Shown here: positions 51,411 to 57,868 of the stretch, in pieces
Numbering within the stretch: position 1 is the first letter of the stretch
Layout of the letters: each line of letters begins with the position of its first letter
Assembly (NCBI RefSeq): GCF_013410545.1
Contig: NZ_JACCFV010000001.1
Coordinates: forward strand, 1,302,001 to 1,366,000
DNA from: Pseudoclavibacter chungangensis
GTDB lineage: Bacteria > Actinomycetota > Actinomycetes > Actinomycetales > Microbacteriaceae
Direction: 5' to 3'
DNA: 64,000 nt
The notes under the pieces: model-generated
Database searches by the model: none
What the model was told of the DNA's origin: nothing
Seen by the model: the letters and a program-made list of their open reading frames with translations, nothing else
Made by a program: the position numbers and the translations under genes

Positions 51411-51751
51411 GCTGCCTCCTCGTTGGGTCTGGTGGTGACACCATCGTAGGTGCCCGCGGCTCGGGAGCGGTGCACGGTGGCCGGGTTTCGCTGGACGCGT
51501 ACCGGTCGGGGCGAGGCCCGAGCCGCGAACGAACCGGTTCCCGTCGGTGCGCGCGTCGACGGCCGCCCCGGCGAGTGACCCGCCGGAATCGACCGTGCGA
51601 TACTTGAGCACCGTGCGCACGGCGTGCGACCCGCGCGGCGGCCGGCGCACATCGCTCGGGGCGTTGACGTCGCGTGCGACGCGAGAGGGGCACCGCGAGT
51701 TCGGTGCCGGAGACGAACCGCACCCGTCGGGTGCGTGAGAGGTGCGTGACG
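51411..51751. other. 341-bp gap between DUF7455 gene and the MurT-like gene
   Basis: It holds the divergent promoters. A GATACT -10-like hexamer at 51599-51604 points toward the MurT-like gene and is followed by the 12-bp palindrome CCGTGCGCACGG at 51611-51622. Short open frames are present, but they are Arg/Pro-rich and unsupported. No RNA gene was recognised. Confidence 0.4.
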
Positions 51752-53041
51752 GTGGCCGGATTCGACGGCATCAGACGATCGGTCGCGACGGGGCTCGGGC
51801 GAGGCGCCCGAGCGGCCATGCGACTTCGCGGCGGAGGATCGGCGGTTCCCGGTCGGGTCGCGCTCGCGATCGACCCGGGCTTCCTGTCGAACGCGGTCGC
51901 CGGGCTCCCGCTCGGTGTGATCTTCGTCTCCGGCTCGAACGGGAAATCGACGACGACGCACTTCGTCACGAAGATCCTGCGCGCGCACGGCCTCACCGTC
52001 TTCACGAACTCGTCCGGCGGCAACCTGCCGCAGGGCATCGCGTCGTCGATGCTGCCCGACGTGGGGCCGGACGGCCGGCTGAAGGCGGATATCGCCGTGC
52101 TCGAGGTCGACGAGGCGTTCGGGCCACAGCTCATCCCGCACCTGCATCCGCGCGGCGTCCTCCTGCTCAACGTGCAGGTGGATCAGCTCAATCGCTTCTT
52201 CGACCCGGCCCGGGTCGCGGGATTCCTCGCGACGATCGCCGACGCCTGCGGTGATTTCGTCGTGCTCAACGCCGACGACGACTCGCTGCGTGGACTCGCG
52301 ACGGGTGTGCGCGCACCGATCGGTTGGTTCGGTGTCGACGCGGCGCTCATCGACGCCTCGCCCAACGGACTCTCGAACGTCGAGGACCTCTCTGGTGGTG
52401 CGCCGCTCGTTCCCGTCGATGACCGCACGGTCGAGGTCGTCGCACTCGTCGACGGCGGCGCGCGACTGCGGATCGGCAGCGAGGTGCACGACTTCCGGCT
52501 GCCGGCCCGTGGGCTGCACTACGCGATCGATGCCGCGGGGGCCGTCGCGACGGCGGTCCAGATCCTCGGCGTCGACTTCCGTGCGAACACGGCGCGCGAT
52601 GCGCTCGCCGTCACGGAGACCGTCTTCGGGCGCGGCGAGCTGCTGCGCAACGGTGACGAGGAGATCGAGATCGTCATGATGAAGAACCCGCCGAGCCTGC
52701 AGATGAACCTCGACGCACTCGACGAGGTGCCCGAGCAGGTGCTCGTCGCGGTCGACGAGGGCACCCCCGACCCCTCGTGGATGTACGGCATCGACCTCTC
52801 CAGGCTCGACCACGCGGACGTCGTGACGGGAACGAAGGCGTGGCAGGTCGCGACGGTGCTCGAGTACGCGGGCATCGACGTGCGGGCGGTCGAACCGTCG
52901 ACCGGCGCCGCGCTCGACCAGTTCCTCGCCCTGCCGCGCCCCTCGCGGGGACGCAAGCTCATGATCGTGAACTACGAGCAGATGATGAACATCAGGCGCC
53001 GACTCGGCGCACCCGGCATCGAGGGGAAGGTCAACTCGTGA
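51752..53041 (+). CDS. murT: MurT-like Mur ligase (DUF1727) without the zinc ribbon
   Basis: A 429-residue ATP-dependent Mur ligase. MurT works with GatD to amidate the alpha-carboxyl of D-Glu in lipid II. The P-loop VSGSNGKSTTTHF, AVLEVDEAFG and NVQVDQLNRFFDPARV mark the central domain; DEGTPDPSWMYGIDLSRL marks the DUF1727 C-terminal domain with its catalytic Asp. Normal MurT inserts a four-Cys zinc ribbon into the central domain. Here the region after APIGWFGVDAALIDASPN continues as DLSGGAPLVPVDDR with no cysteine, and the ribbon is absent. GTG 51752 has AGAGG 9 nt upstream; GTG 51746 is an alternative. It overlaps the GatD-like gene by GTGA. Confidence 0.85.
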   Translation: MAGFDGIRRSVATGLGRGARAAMRLRGGGSAVPGRVALAIDPGFLSNAVAGLPLGVIFVSGSNGKSTTTHFVTKILRAHGLTVFTNSSGGNLPQGIASSMLPDVGPDGRLKADIAVLEVDEAFGPQLIPHLHPRGVLLLNVQVDQLNRFFDPARVAGFLATIADACGDFVVLNADDDSLRGLATGVRAPIGWFGVDAALIDASPNGLSNVEDLSGGAPLVPVDDRTVEVVALVDGGARLRIGSEVHDFRLPARGLHYAIDAAGAVATAVQILGVDFRANTARDALAVTETVFGRGELLRNGDEEIEIVMMKNPPSLQMNLDALDEVPEQVLVAVDEGTPDPSWMYGIDLSRLDHADVVTGTKAWQVATVLEYAGIDVRAVEPSTGAALDQFLALPRPSRGRKLMIVNYEQMMNIRRRLGAPGIEGKVNS

Positions 53042-53793
53042 CGCTCCGTATCGTCCACCTCTTCCCGCGCGAACTCGGCATCAACGGTGACGTCGGCAAC
53101 GTGACCGCGCTCGTCGAGCGGGCTCGCGAGTACGGCATCGCGACCGAGGTCGTCGACGTCGGTCGCGGCGACGAACTGCCCGCGTCGGCCGACCTCGTGC
53201 ACATCGGCTCGGGCCCGCTGTCCTCCGTCGAACTCGTGCTGCCGGACGCCGTGCGGCTCGGCGGAACCCTCCGCGCCTGGGCGGCCGACGGCGTTCCGTT
53301 CCTCGCGATCGCCGCGGGGTGGGAGGTGCTCGGTCGCTCGATCACGACCGAGGACGGCCGCGTGCTCCAGGGCGCCGGGGTGTTCCCGACCCGCGCGGTC
53401 CGGCAGAACGTGCAGGCAGTGGGGGAGACGGTGCTCCGCACGCGCGGCGGCCTGCTCGCGGGCTACGTCAACCAGAACTCGATCACGCAGCTCGAGGACG
53501 GCGCCGCCTCGCTCGGTGAAGTCGTCAAGGGCTTCGGCAACGGCGGGATCGAACAGCCCGATCTCGGTCTCGAGGGGGTCGTCGCGGGCTCGCTGTTCGG
53601 CACGCACCTGCACGGGACGGCACTCGCCATGAACCCCGGCCTCGCCGACCGACTGCTCACGATCGCCGTGCAACGGCAGGACGCGGGCGCACACCTGCAG
53701 CGGCCCTCGGCGGGCGGTCGCCTCGATCGGATCGACCACTTCGCGCGGGGTTCCCGCGAGGCGCTCATGCGGCGCGTCGGCGTCGCCGAGTAG
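53038..53793 (+). CDS. gatD: GatD-like class I glutamine amidotransferase lacking the catalytic Cys
   Basis: A 251-residue partner of the overlapping MurT-like ligase. In GatD this subunit hydrolyses glutamine and feeds ammonia to MurT. The fold is intact (RIVHLFPRELGINGDVGNV, GSGPLSSVELVLPDAV, NGGIEQPDLGLEGVV). The nucleophile-elbow motif, normally AICGGYQ or AICAGLQ, reads AIAAGWEVLG: position 92 is Ala (GCC) instead of Cys. The catalytic-type His is kept (LFGTHLHGTALAMNP). Glutaminase activity should therefore be lost. The complex may use free ammonia, use another amine donor, or have become an amino-acid ligase. A convergent hairpin follows. Confidence 0.85.
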   Translation: MTLRIVHLFPRELGINGDVGNVTALVERAREYGIATEVVDVGRGDELPASADLVHIGSGPLSSVELVLPDAVRLGGTLRAWAADGVPFLAIAAGWEVLGRSITTEDGRVLQGAGVFPTRAVRQNVQAVGETVLRTRGGLLAGYVNQNSITQLEDGAASLGEVVKGFGNGGIEQPDLGLEGVVAGSLFGTHLHGTALAMNPGLADRLLTIAVQRQDAGAHLQRPSAGGRLDRIDHFARGSREALMRRVGVAE

Positions 53794-53870: not shown

Positions 53871-54932
53871 TCAGACGACGACGCGTGGCACCCGCGTGGT
53901 GACGCCGGTCACGAGCTCGTCCGGGACGGTGTCGTTCCAGGCGGCCCACTCCTCGGCCGTCGGCTCGCCGTCGTCACCGGTGCCGAAGACGATCGCCTCG
54001 TCGCCGACGGTGATGCGTGCACCGGAGAGCTCGACGACGGATTCGTCGACACCGACGTGCACGATCGGCTGACGGCGGCCCCCGAGCAGCACCTCGCGTT
54101 CGGCACCGGCGAGCGACTGGAGTCCGTCGCCGTAACCGATCGCGATCGTGGCGCGGGCGCCGTCGAGGTGCGTCACGGGCGCGCGCAGGGACATGACCGG
54201 CACGAGTCCGAGATCGCGTCCCGAGCGGTCGTGGAACGGGGAGATGCCGTAGGCCGCGATCCCGAATCGCACGAGGTCGAAGCGTGCCGCGGGGAGGTCG
54301 ATCGCCGCGGACGACGCGGCGAGGTGCAACAGCTCGAACTCGGCACCGAGATCGCGCGCGACGGCGACCGCGGCCTCGAATCGTGCGAGCGCCTCGAGGT
54401 CGGCCTCGTGCGAGGTGTCGCTCAGGTGACTCCACGCGCCCACGATGCGGACGAGTCCGGCCCGCTGGAGTTCGAGGGCGTGCTCGACGAGCGTGGGCCA
54501 GTCCTCGGGGTTCGCGCCCGAGCGGTGGAGGCCCGTGTCGATCTTGAGATGGACGCGCGCCGGCCCCGCGTCGCCGGCCGAGCGAGCACCCTCCGCGGCG
54601 CCGTCGAGGTGCGCGATGAAGGCGGCACCGAGATCGATGCGCTGTTCGACCGCGCTGCGGAAGTCGGCGTCGCGCCCGTGCATCCACGCGAACATCGGCG
54701 CGTCGACGCCTGCCGCGCGGAGCGCGAGTCCCGTGCCGATCTCGAGCACACCGAGCCAGCTCGCACCGGATTCGAGTCCCGTCCGGACGCACGAGAGGAG
54801 CCCGTGCCCGTAGGCGTCGGACTTGACGGCGAGCATGGTCGCGGCGGGCGCGACGAGCCCCGAGAGCTGCGCGACGTTGTGCCGCAGTGCCTGCTCCGAG
54901 ATGCGCGCCACAGCGCGCCCGGCCGCGCTCAC
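53871..54932 (-). CDS. Alanine-racemase-like protein A: has PLP Lys, lacks the catalytic-Tyr segment
   Basis: A 353-residue fold-III PLP protein. The barrel is complete for an Alr: Lys37 in MLAVKSDAYGHG (Schiff-base Lys), HLKIDTGLHRSG (carboxylate-region Arg), GAWSHLSD, HLAASSAAI and DLVRFGIAAYG. In the C-terminal domain the stretch that normally reads GEGVSYGxTYRT is deleted: SLRAPVTHLDG runs straight into ATIAIGYGDGL. The usual RxCMDQ is HVGVDES. The residues a subunit contributes to its neighbour's active site (catalytic Tyr, Met-Asp) are therefore missing. The GTG start overlaps the stop of racemase-like gene B by GTGA, so the two are translationally coupled. Confidence 0.85.
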   Translation of the reverse strand: MSAAGRAVARISEQALRHNVAQLSGLVAPAATMLAVKSDAYGHGLLSCVRTGLESGASWLGVLEIGTGLALRAAGVDAPMFAWMHGRDADFRSAVEQRIDLGAAFIAHLDGAAEGARSAGDAGPARVHLKIDTGLHRSGANPEDWPTLVEHALELQRAGLVRIVGAWSHLSDTSHEADLEALARFEAAVAVARDLGAEFELLHLAASSAAIDLPAARFDLVRFGIAAYGISPFHDRSGRDLGLVPVMSLRAPVTHLDGARATIAIGYGDGLQSLAGAEREVLLGGRRQPIVHVGVDESVVELSGARITVGDEAIVFGTGDDGEPTAEEWAAWNDTVPDELVTGVTTRVPRVVV

Positions 54933-55642
54933 GCGAGGATCCGCTCGACGGTGGGGGCGATGCGTGCGCAGATCGCGGCAGCGGCGATCCCCGTCGTTCC
55001 CGCCCAGTCGAGCACGTGCGGCTCACCGCGGGCCGGATCGCCGAAGAGCACGGCGTCGCTGCCGACCTCGACGTCGGCGCCGTGGACGTCGACCGAGAAC
55101 TGGTCCATCGAGATCGCGCCCGAGATCGTGCCCGTCACGCCCCCGACGAGCACGGGGGAGCGGTTCGTGGCCCGTCGGACGGCACCGTGGGCGTAGCCGA
55201 TGCCGACGAGCGCGAGGTTCGTCGCCGCAGTCGTGCGATAGCTGAAGCCGTAGGACACGCCTTCGCCCGCGGCGAGCGTCTTGACGGCGAGCACCTCGGC
55301 GGCGAGGCGCAGTGCGGGTGACAGGGAACGATCCGTGAGCCCGAGCAGGGCGGGGCCGACGGCCGCATCGGGCCTCGGGTCACCGGGCTCCGCGATGACC
55401 GGGTCGAGGCCGGAGCGGCGGACCTCGTCGGCGTCGTGCGGCGTGGAGACGTAGGCGGTGCGGGTACCCGATACTCCGAGGACGTCCGCGATCCGCCCGG
55501 CGCCGTGGCCGTAGGCGCCGGCGCGCAGGTCGACGGGATCGCCGGGTTCGAGGCCGAGCGATGCGATGTTGCGGAGCACCGCTCCACGATGGATGACGGC
55601 GACGCGCCGGACGGTTGCCGGCGCGGAGACAGGTGCGTTCAC
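54929..55642 (-). CDS. Alanine-racemase-like protein B: has catalytic Tyr and MDQ, lacks PLP Lys
   Basis: A 237-residue protein with the Alr C-terminal domain but a shortened barrel. The N-terminal motif is VDLRAGAYGHG: Arg40 replaces the PLP Lys. Most of the barrel, including the Arg, His and Ser PLP ligands, is missing between about 60 and 108. The C-terminal domain is classic: LAAGEGVSYGFSYRT with Tyr131 (equivalent of Tyr265 in Geobacillus Alr), IGYAHG, and GAISMDQFSVDV with Met179-Asp180. Alone it cannot hold PLP, but it supplies exactly what protein A lacks. GTG 55642 follows AAGGGGACGT; TAGCCT at 55667-55672 is a likely -10 box. Confidence 0.85.
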   Translation of the reverse strand: MNAPVSAPATVRRVAVIHRGAVLRNIASLGLEPGDPVDLRAGAYGHGAGRIADVLGVSGTRTAYVSTPHDADEVRRSGLDPVIAEPGDPRPDAAVGPALLGLTDRSLSPALRLAAEVLAVKTLAAGEGVSYGFSYRTTAATNLALVGIGYAHGAVRRATNRSPVLVGGVTGTISGAISMDQFSVDVHGADVEVGSDAVLFGDPARGEPHVLDWAGTTGIAAAAICARIAPTVERILA

Positions 55643-55768: not shown

Positions 55769-57868
55769 ATGGCCCAACCGACACCCGACGCCTACTCGGC
55801 CCGGCACCTCTCGGTGCTCGACGGGCTCGAGGCGGTCCGGAAACGGCCGGGCATGTACATCGGCTCGACCGACTCGCGTGGCCTCATGCACTGCCTGTGG
55901 GAGATCATCGACAACTCCGTCGACGAGGCGCTCGGCGGGCACGGCGACCGGATCGGCGTGCACCTGCACCCCGACGGTTCGGTCACGGTCTCGGACCGCG
56001 GGCGCGGTGTGCCCGTCGACATCGAGCCGAAGACCGGCCTCAGCGGTGTCGAGGTCGTGTTCACGAAGCTCCACGCCGGCGGCAAGTTCGGTGCCGACAA
56101 CTACGGTGCGGCCGGTGGTCTGCACGGCGTCGGTGCGTCCGTCGTGAACGCGCTCTCGGAGCGGCTCGACGTCGAGGTCGACCGCGGTGGGCGCACGTAC
56201 GCGATGAGCTTCCGGCGCGGTGAGCCGGGCCACTTCGAGGACGGTGCCGACGGTCCCCGGCCCGACGCCCCCTTCACGCCCTACACGGAACACTCCGAGT
56301 TGCGCGTCGTCGGCAAGGTCGCGAAGGGCGTCACGGGTACACGCGTGCGCTACTGGGCCGATCCGCAGATCTTCATCCGCGGTGCCGAGTTCAAGGCCGA
56401 CGAGCTGGCCGCCCGCGCCCGGCAGACCGCGTTCCTCGTGCCCGGACTCGACATGGTGATCGAGGACGGTCGCAGCGACGACGCGGCACCCGAGGTGCAG
56501 TCGTTCCGCTACGACGGCGGCATCACGGAGTTCGCGGAGTACCTCGCGCCCGATGCCCCCTCGACCGACACATGGCGCATCCAGGGGGAGGGGACGTACG
56601 AGGAGACCGTGCCCGTCCTCGACGAACACGGCCACATGGTCTCGACCGACGTGAAGCGCACGATGCACGTCGATATCGCGATGCGCTGGGGAGTCGGCTA
56701 CGACACGACGCTGCGCTCGTTCGTGAACATCATCGCGACGCCCAAGGGCGGCACCCACGTGACGGGCTTCGAGCAGGGCCTGCTGAAGTTCTTCCGGGCC
56801 GAGGTCGAGCGCAATGCCCGACGCCTCAAGGTCGGCAACGACAAGCTCGAGAAGGACGACGTGCTCGCCGGTCTGACCGTCGTCGTCACGGTGCGGCTGC
56901 CGGAACCGCAGTTCGAGGGGCAGACGAAGGAGGTGCTCGGTACGCCGCCCGTCCGCGCGATCGTCGCCCGCGAACTCACGAAGGGGCTCACCGCGAAGTT
57001 CGCCTCCACGAGCCGGCAGGACAAGGCCGAGGCCTCGCTCCTGCTCGACAAGGTCGTCTCGGAGATGAAGTCGCGCATCTCGGCCCGAGCCCACAAGGAG
57101 ACGCAGCGACGCAAGAACGCGCTCGAGAACTCGTCGCTGCCGACGAAGCTCGTCGACTGCCGATCGAACGACGTGGCGCGCTCGGAGCTGTTCATCGTCG
57201 AGGGCGACTCGGCGCTCGGCACGGCGAAGCCCGCGCGCAACAGCGACTACCAGGCGCTCCTGCCCATCCGCGGCAAGATCCTCAACGTCCAGAAGGCGTC
57301 GATCAGTGACATGCTCGGCAACGCCGAGTGCGCGAGCATCATCCAGGTGATCGGTGCGGGGTCCGGGCGGTCCTTCGACCTGGGGGCGGCGCGCTACGGC
57401 AAGGTCATCCTCATGAGCGACGCCGATGTCGACGGCGCGCACATCCGAACGCTCCTCCTGACCCTCATCTTCCGGTACATGCGTCCGCTGCTCGACGACG
57501 GTCGCGTCTACGCGGCCGTGCCGCCCCTGCACCGAGTCGTCGTCATCAACCCCGGCTCGAAGCCGAACGAGACGATCTACACGTACTCCGAGACCGAGCT
57601 GCAGACGCTCCTCGCGAAGCTCCGCAAGCAGAACAAGCGCTACCAGGACCCCATCCAGCGCTACAAGGGACTCGGCGAGATGGACGAGGACCAGCTCTGG
57701 ACGACGACGATGGACCCGAGCGCCCGACTCCTGCGACGCGTGTCGATCAGCGACGCGGCCGCCGCCGAGCAGATGTTCAACCTGCTCATGGGCACCGAGG
57801 TCGCACCCCGCAAGGAGTTCATCATCGACGGCTCCAAGGACATCACCCCGCAACTCATCGATATGTGA
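55769..57868 (+). CDS. parE: DNA topoisomerase IV / gyrase-type subunit B
   Basis: A 699-residue type IIA topoisomerase ATPase subunit. The GHKL domain has VRKRPGMYIGST, EIIDNSVDEALGGHG and GGLHGVGASVVNALS. The transducer has a QTKEVLGTPPVR stretch. The TOPRIM domain has FIVEGDSALGTAK, LPIRGKILNVQKA and the metal-binding DADVDGAHIRTLLL. It ends in RYKGLGEMDEDQLW and FIIDGSKD-type residues. Position away from dnaN-recF and proximity to parC favour the topoisomerase IV (ParE) assignment over GyrB. GAGGAGCACC precedes ATG 55769. Confidence 0.92.
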   Translation: MAQPTPDAYSARHLSVLDGLEAVRKRPGMYIGSTDSRGLMHCLWEIIDNSVDEALGGHGDRIGVHLHPDGSVTVSDRGRGVPVDIEPKTGLSGVEVVFTKLHAGGKFGADNYGAAGGLHGVGASVVNALSERLDVEVDRGGRTYAMSFRRGEPGHFEDGADGPRPDAPFTPYTEHSELRVVGKVAKGVTGTRVRYWADPQIFIRGAEFKADELAARARQTAFLVPGLDMVIEDGRSDDAAPEVQSFRYDGGITEFAEYLAPDAPSTDTWRIQGEGTYEETVPVLDEHGHMVSTDVKRTMHVDIAMRWGVGYDTTLRSFVNIIATPKGGTHVTGFEQGLLKFFRAEVERNARRLKVGNDKLEKDDVLAGLTVVVTVRLPEPQFEGQTKEVLGTPPVRAIVARELTKGLTAKFASTSRQDKAEASLLLDKVVSEMKSRISARAHKETQRRKNALENSSLPTKLVDCRSNDVARSELFIVEGDSALGTAKPARNSDYQALLPIRGKILNVQKASISDMLGNAECASIIQVIGAGSGRSFDLGAARYGKVILMSDADVDGAHIRTLLLTLIFRYMRPLLDDGRVYAAVPPLHRVVVINPGSKPNETIYTYSETELQTLLAKLRKQNKRYQDPIQRYKGLGEMDEDQLWTTTMDPSARLLRRVSISDAAAAEQMFNLLMGTEVAPRKEFIIDGSKDITPQLIDM

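Follow-up and report, generated by a model that had tools for sequence, protein, structure and literature searches.

Textbooks describe alanine racemase (Alr), a drug target, as a homodimer. It is a PLP enzyme of fold type III, described by the Pfam domains PF01168 and PF00842 and by the NCBIfam model TIGR00492. Serine palmitoyltransferase is a heterodimeric PLP enzyme with one live site, where LCB1 and LCB2 are paralogues and the one lacking the lysine completes the site of its partner. The serine racemase VanT is membrane-bound, has the Alr fold and a complete catalytic chain, and acts on an altered substrate.

Alr has activity only in dimeric form, and its two bases, a Lys and a Tyr, come from different monomers (PMC3146814, in the part of the text available). 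Tyr354 of Alr hydrogen bonds to the PLP phosphate, and the gap between Tyr265 and Tyr354 sets the specificity for alanine. The Tyr354 position is occupied by Thr in lysine racemase, Ala in Bar, and Asn in VanT (PMC3485190, excerpted text). Lyr and Bar (PDB 4dza and 4dyj) share the Alr fold, have Tyr354 replaced at the substrate entry, and act on basic substrates. Another described system that bears on this locus is MurT-GatD, the lipid II amidotransferase. In the accessible passages of PMC5871853 and PMC6085368, S. aureus GatD requires C94 and H189, and the former source reports that C94A or H189A abolishes glutaminase activity.

The window is the whole stretch of DNA that was analyzed, 64,000 nucleotides of the Pseudoclavibacter chungangensis genome. 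It contains two overlapping genes encoding protein A and protein B, which very probably form an obligate heterodimeric Alr-type PLP racemase, as judged from the residues that each protein has kept. As far as the open-licence literature goes, the system is a hitherto undescribed form of a known kind of enzyme. Searches of that literature for an alanine racemase that is heterodimeric or split found none, though this is weak evidence of absence, and the initial annotation of the window, which proposed the heterodimer, likewise knew of none.

Genes and active-site residues of the window pair

The positions, lengths, and GTGA overlap of the two genes proved correct on re-check (Table 1). Translational coupling of B and A through the overlap is probable. 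A 4-nt overlap is present in eight of nine relatives having both genes, with L102 as the exception, a count that depends on start codons chosen by the analyst. Protein A matches Ala_racemase_N (160 bits) and a truncated Ala_racemase_C (profile positions 33-126 of 127), and protein B matches Ala_racemase_C alone (100.6 bits). Against the TIGR00492 cut-off of 168, A scores 184.3 bits and B 90.9 bits. Because only A passes this alanine racemase cut-off, the system is easily overlooked.

Table 1. Positions in the window of the racemase-like pair and its neighbors.
Feature	Positions	Strand	Observation
Divergent MurT (Mur ligase)	51674-53041	+	MurT_C 22.9 bits, below Pfam cut-off 25; convergent with the pair
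GatD homologue	53041-53793	+	Ala at glutaminase nucleophile Cys, motif FLAIAAGW
Protein A, 353 aa	53871-54932	-	Complete racemase barrel and C domain without Tyr265 loop/Met312
GTGA overlap, B stop/A start, 4 nt	54929-54932	-	Sequence
Protein B, 237 aa	54929-55642	-	Half barrel and complete C domain
ParE/GyrB-type topoisomerase subunit	55769-57868	+	Conserved neighbor marking the locus

Protein A retains Lys37 and the barrel ligands, lacks the Tyr265-bearing stretch of Alr, and reads GVDES in place of CMDQ, all as first described. Lys37, Tyr41, Lys130, Arg137, His169, Ser207, and Arg222 are invariant across nine aligned A proteins. In the alignment, Val falls at Met312, and Asp338 is the equivalent of Alr Tyr354. 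Protein B, also as described, has Arg40 in the catalytic Lys position and retains Tyr131, the equivalent of Tyr265, and Met179-Asp180, the equivalent of Met312-Asp313. These three residues are invariant across 10 aligned B proteins. The losses had been called exactly reciprocal. This holds for the Lys on one side and Tyr265 and Met312 on the other, but not for Asp313, whose equivalent, the Asp beside the lost Met, is still present in the GVDES motif of A.

The predicted single-chain fold of A is confident, and that of B is of high confidence, with 229 of 237 model residues aligning to Alr chain residues 4-376; the alignments behind both models contain ordinary Alrs. Since the B model spans this range, B consists of about half a barrel plus the C domain and is not a bare C domain. 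B is truncated, as had been noted, but it was said to lack most of the barrel and in fact has about half. By both sequence and fold, the nearest relative of A and B is actinobacterial Alr.

Because the two Alr bases come from different monomers, a dimer of A and B would have one complete site and one with neither base. In the complete site, A would provide one base, Lys37, along with the barrel, PLP, and the phosphate and substrate ligands, including Asp338. B would reach across the interface with the other base, Tyr131, and with Met179-Asp180. The mirror-image site would be dead on both sides, with Arg40 in B and Tyr265 missing in A.

The pair shares with homodimeric Alr the fold (barrel and C-terminal beta domain), the barrel active site, the cross-interface Tyr265 and Met312-Asp313, and the sequence. 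It differs in dividing the catalytic parts between two non-identical chains, neither of which has the PLP lysine and the trans-acting Tyr within one polypeptide. The Tyr354 gate that limits the substrate to alanine is also absent, with Asp or Glu in its place. Replacement of Tyr354 at the substrate entry is shared with Lyr and Bar, which are homodimers, have Thr or Ala rather than Asp/Glu, and are 22-23% identical to A. At the Arg136-Leu137 position, Lyr and Bar have Arg-Asn, window A has Arg-Ser, and other A proteins have Arg-Gly or Arg-Asn. This position is not diagnostic here because the consensus of ordinary Alrs in the family also reads Arg-Asn. VanT resembles the pair in that an altered substrate goes with a replaced Tyr354, but its catalytic chain is complete. 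The pair is like LCB1/LCB2 in its logic, a paralogue without the PLP lysine completing the site of its partner, and unlike it in having another fold type, in being a racemase, and in that both chains are reciprocally lossy.

The window genome is a single contig of 3.985 Mb. Matches to Ala_racemase_C occur in A, B, and one long frame, which has two, and this search found no canonical intact Alr. The third intact alr considered in the initial annotation is therefore absent, the long frame being the one additional gene. In this frame (L001, about 630 aa counted from a GTG start chosen by the analyst), A-like and B-like halves are joined in that order in one chain and show the complementary losses seen in the pair, with Tyr354 kept. 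The fused gene is probably the alanine racemase proper of this genome.

Recurrence and conservation in the family

Of the 398 family genomes covered by profile searches and reading of loci, at least 115 have B-A pairs, and these represent 30 of 85 genera. Coordinate pairing alone, with A directly downstream of B and an accepted gap of -1 to 180 nt between the matched stretches, gave 70 genomes in 25 genera; the remaining 14 and 31 genomes come from later-read loci that pairing had missed. Carriers include Gulosibacter sp. 10 (L044), Microbacterium mangrovi (L048), M. barkeri (L053), M. jejuense (L055), Microbacterium sp. HD4P20 (L049), and Microbacterium sp. SS28 (L052). An assembly error behind the window pair is untenable because B-A pairs occur in 30 genera. 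Among the listed genomes of genus g85, three of 12 show no B row. Across 297 genomes of the order, only the family of the window has B-like matches that extend over the N-terminal part at E <= 1e-45, and two genomes of other families match over the C domain only (97-229).

Alr domains were aligned to a model of 12 ordinary Alrs of the family, in sets of 204, 35, and 40 loci. The 204 loci of the first set hold 266 distinct units, which were sorted into classes on Lys39, Tyr265, and residue 354; independent tests therefore come only from the remaining positions. Five short B units (L015, L018, L029, L054, and L070) were judged to be ordinary genes, end-cut or frameshifted, and are to be discounted. 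Two types of pair are distinguished: type 1 has the order A-B with Tyr354, and type 2, the window kind, has the order B-A with Asp or Glu354. Gene order and residue 354 go together. Asp/Glu354 is found in 66/66 B-A pairs with the residue aligned (two of them fused), and Tyr354 in 13/13 A-B pairs (10 fused). Later loci gave Asp/Glu in 31/31 B-A pairs and Tyr in 3/3 A-B pairs. Where aligned, residue 354 of A units is always Asp, Glu, or Tyr; six units are unaligned there.

The 70 A units with Asp/Glu354 (38 Asp, 32 Glu) all have Tyr43, Lys129, Arg136, His166, Ser204, and Arg219 intact, and all have lost Met312. Asp313 is retained in 55 of them, so the dead half is not wholly erased. The barrel residues are likewise intact in 14/14 A units with Tyr354, with Ser204 changed to Thr in 13. 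Among B-class units, Met312 is retained in 97/97, and residue 313 is Asp in 88 and Asn in nine. The lysine column of partnered B units holds Arg in 44, Ser in six, Asp in four, Thr in four, Ala in three, and Gly in one, and is unaligned in 23.

An A unit stands beside or is fused to 85 of the 97 B-class units. These comprise 64 B-A pairs with a type-2 A, 10 fused A-B genes, three separate A-B pairs (genus g77), two fused B-A genes, and six units with an incomplete A; L054, counted among the 85, is an ordinary gene with a frameshift. Judged from coordinates, the 12 partnerless B units either are truncated where a locus or contig stops or are second copies of inspected loci. L274 is an additional fused B-A gene. 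Conversely, 31 A rows had no listed B. When these loci were fetched, B adjoined A in 31/31, with one B cut by the contig end. At L153, the contig stops where B would stand. Contig ends aside, no A without B was seen among the inspected loci, and the loss of one gene with persistence of the other, which would have spoken against a heterodimer, was not encountered. The heterodimer proposed at the outset is thus supported by the recurrence of the pair, by the co-occurrence of its genes across relatives, and by the lack of a third intact alr, all comparative evidence.

The function of A and B is maintained by selection, with dN/dS of about 0.1 in one genus. Ten comparisons per gene within genus g1 gave 0.08-0.15 for A and 0.06-0.10 for B.

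Ligase cassette and candidate substrate

Twenty-four type-2 B-A loci were compared: the window, L205-L221, and the six carriers named above. ParE is present in 24/24 and SigA in 23/24, L207 having no SigA in the stretch covered. An amide-ligase cassette lies near B-A in 23 of the 24 loci, located between ParE and SigA or next to them. MurT and GatD occur in 12, a CofE-like gene (F420_ligase) in 11 (L044, L048, L049, L052, L053, L055, L205, L206, L210, L212, and L215), and both in none. At L207, neither cassette was found within the 16 kb examined. The CofE-like gene, accompanied in 9/11 of these loci by a PF14397 ATP-grasp gene, occupies the position of MurT-GatD. In six other loci, MurT-GatD is codirectional with and upstream of B-A, whereas it is convergent in the window. 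Of 34 hand-picked MurT_C rows, 30 have an A row no more than 4 kb away, and the other four are on other contigs.

The window neighbors are homologues of MurT and GatD, but GatD here lacks the glutaminase Cys of the MurT-GatD isoglutaminyl synthase (C94 in S. aureus). Its nucleophile position, placed by motif and not by alignment to S. aureus GatD, is Ala or Gly in 12/12 loci (the window, L208, L209, L211, L213, L214, and L216-L221). The GatD His is also missing in six of the 11 non-window loci. MurT with a Cys-less GatD is possibly a repurposed ligase, and the conserved ligase-cassette locus supports a putative role of the pair in the cell wall.

Group B peptidoglycan cross-bridges attach to the alpha-carboxyl of D-Glu. 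No enzymes are known to be assigned to this cross-bridge, and none of the open-licence papers listed deals with them by title. The acidic residue 354 throughout type 2 suggests a basic substrate. For the window pair, a basic diamino acid (2,4-diaminobutyrate, ornithine, or lysine) is given an even chance. The pair would racemize this diamino acid for the group B cross-bridge and then hand it to the adjoining ligase. It would be a second system, with Asp for Tyr354, beside the fused alanine racemase. The explanation as a whole, a heterodimeric racemase that forms a second, diamino-acid system beside a fused Alr, is considered likely.

Wall composition and genome content bear on the substrate in both directions. 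Rhodoluna lacicola (Microbacteriaceae) has D-Dab in its wall (PMC4156110, available portion), and Microbacterium species differ in their wall diamino acid, which is D-Orn, L-Lys, or Dab (PMC10757982, available portion). The small genomes G010, G013, and G059 lack the pair and have a single ordinary Alr with Tyr354, and the pair is present in other small-genome genera (g31, g39, and g68). Pairless small genomes, set beside D-Dab in the Rhodoluna wall, count against a diamino-acid substrate, though small-genome genera of both kinds exist. Also set against this substrate are at least nine B-A carriers that have an ordinary Alr as well. A D-diamino-acid role universal for the family is rejected because genomes without the pair exist. 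A homologue of diaminobutyrate--2-oxoglutarate transaminase is next to the cassette at L210 (11146-12459) and L044 (8877-10856). The L210 homologue, the one scored, reaches 619 bits against a cut-off of 438. This transaminase could serve ectoine synthesis instead.

A broader reading falls somewhat short of an even chance. The family would have reshaped homodimeric Alr, probably more than once, into heterodimers and pseudo-dimers, with type 1 as the essential Alr and type 2 as a D-diamino-acid racemase feeding a precursor ligase for the group B cross-bridge. The ligase would be either MurT acting with a GatD that is no glutaminase or a CofE-like/ATP-grasp cassette that can take its place, and it would build the cross-bridge by joining the D-diamino acid to D-Glu at the alpha-carboxyl. 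If the substrate lead is true, it points to genes for this cross-bridge.

A possible but doubtful alternative is that the pair is an obligate heterodimer serving as a second alanine (or serine) racemase, with Asp/Glu354 merely tolerated. The nearness of both proteins to actinobacterial Alr fits this, as does VanT, which also replaces Tyr354, by Asn (PMC3485190, excerpt). Tolerance is hard to square with Asp/Glu354 in every B-A pair of both sets and with the conserved ligase-cassette locus. In addition, a canonical Tyr354 Alr accompanies the B-A pair in at least nine genomes (G001, G006, G041, G066, G080, G089, G103, G106, and G113), so not every carrier needs the pair for D-Ala.

Fused genes and evolutionary intermediates

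Several genomes appear to rely on complementary chains. The fused A-B gene is the sole Alr found by Ala_racemase_C in G120, G127, and six genomes placed in the genus Gulosibacter (G020, G100, G168, G217, G260, and G297). In G049, G119, and G181, the sole Alr found is one open frame that combines an A half with only the C domain of B and with a TsaE-like part, named by eye and not by family search. At loci L244, L245, and L246, a TsaE-like P-loop part shares a single frame with an A-type half and a bare B-type C domain. G077, G147, and G282 have two complementary pairs and no other Alr. Completeness is 90% for G127 and 99-100% for the others. No D-amino acid transaminase scored above the family cut-off in the seven genomes tested, and G120 had no match at all. 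Since D-Ala is needed for the wall and no other Alr was found, the complementary arrangement must presumably be able to work in these genomes. Fusions in both orders, together with fused genes as the sole Alr, are strong indirect evidence for what would be a physical A:B unit. The fused chains of relatives would be obligate pseudo-heterodimers with one complete site.

These genomes also bear on an improbable alternative, in which A alone is a homodimer with other chemistry (e.g., a retro-aldol or decarboxylating PLP enzyme) and B is a scaffold or regulator. A has a complete barrel and is predicted to fold confidently by itself, and Tyr265 mutants of Alr have aldolase activity. However, Met312, next to the class-defining Tyr, is kept in every B-class unit, and scaffolding needs neither residue. 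One genus has B cut to little beyond the Tyr/Met-Asp domain and fused to A, and in 11 genomes no Alr other than a fused gene was found.

The proposed heterodimer probably arose from tandem or duplicated homodimeric alr genes, which would have become a B-A pair through reciprocal loss. Intact tandems of alr1 (Tyr354) and alr2 (Asp354) occur, e.g., at L157, L158, and L280-L282, and an intact second gene with Asp at Tyr354 was also noted at L031, L298, and L299. The window system may have a homodimeric relative in the tandem alr2 with Asp354. At L145-L148, L269, and L279, B has a full-length barrel but has lost the lysine, and a full-length dead B is fused to A at L155 and L274. Within genus g77, G370 retains the intact alr1-alr2 tandem, and the seven other inspected genomes (G077, G147, G198, G243, G282, G316, and G345) have a type-1 A-B pair. 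A series from intact tandem to dead full-length barrel, half barrel, bare C domain, and fused chain would show stepwise how a symmetric enzyme turns obligately asymmetric.

In the N-barrel tree, A with Asp/Glu354 and intact alr2 with Asp/Glu354 form one clade (SH-aLRT 98), apart from A with Tyr354. AU tests on thinned rows, with groups named after seeing the first tree, rejected all A together without the intact alr2 rows (p 0.0001), weakly rejected Asp/Glu354 A alone without intact alr2 (p 0.029), and did not reject all A plus the intact alr2 rows (p 0.6). A single clade of all Tyr354 A was not rejected (p 0.83). In the C-domain tree (129 columns), the g77 B falls with intact alr2 (96) and outside the main B clade (95). 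The tree tests therefore indicate two or more losses, or reversions, and no number of origins is claimed.

That the genes are pseudogenes undergoing decay, or frameshifted versions of a single ordinary alr, has a negligible probability given 30 genera, mostly one locus, the low dN/dS, invariant active-site residues, and high-confidence folds; such an origin is refuted for the window pair by its conservation and is likely for L054 only, which does resemble a frameshifted canonical alr. In its record, this Pseudolysinimonas kribbensis alr (about 4904-6364 of L054) appears frameshifted.

A third Alr-like gene of about 390 aa is present in four genomes of the window's genus (L097, L106, L107, and L108). 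It has Ser at Lys129, Asn at Asp313, and Ala or no aligned residue at Tyr354, and represents another racemase type.
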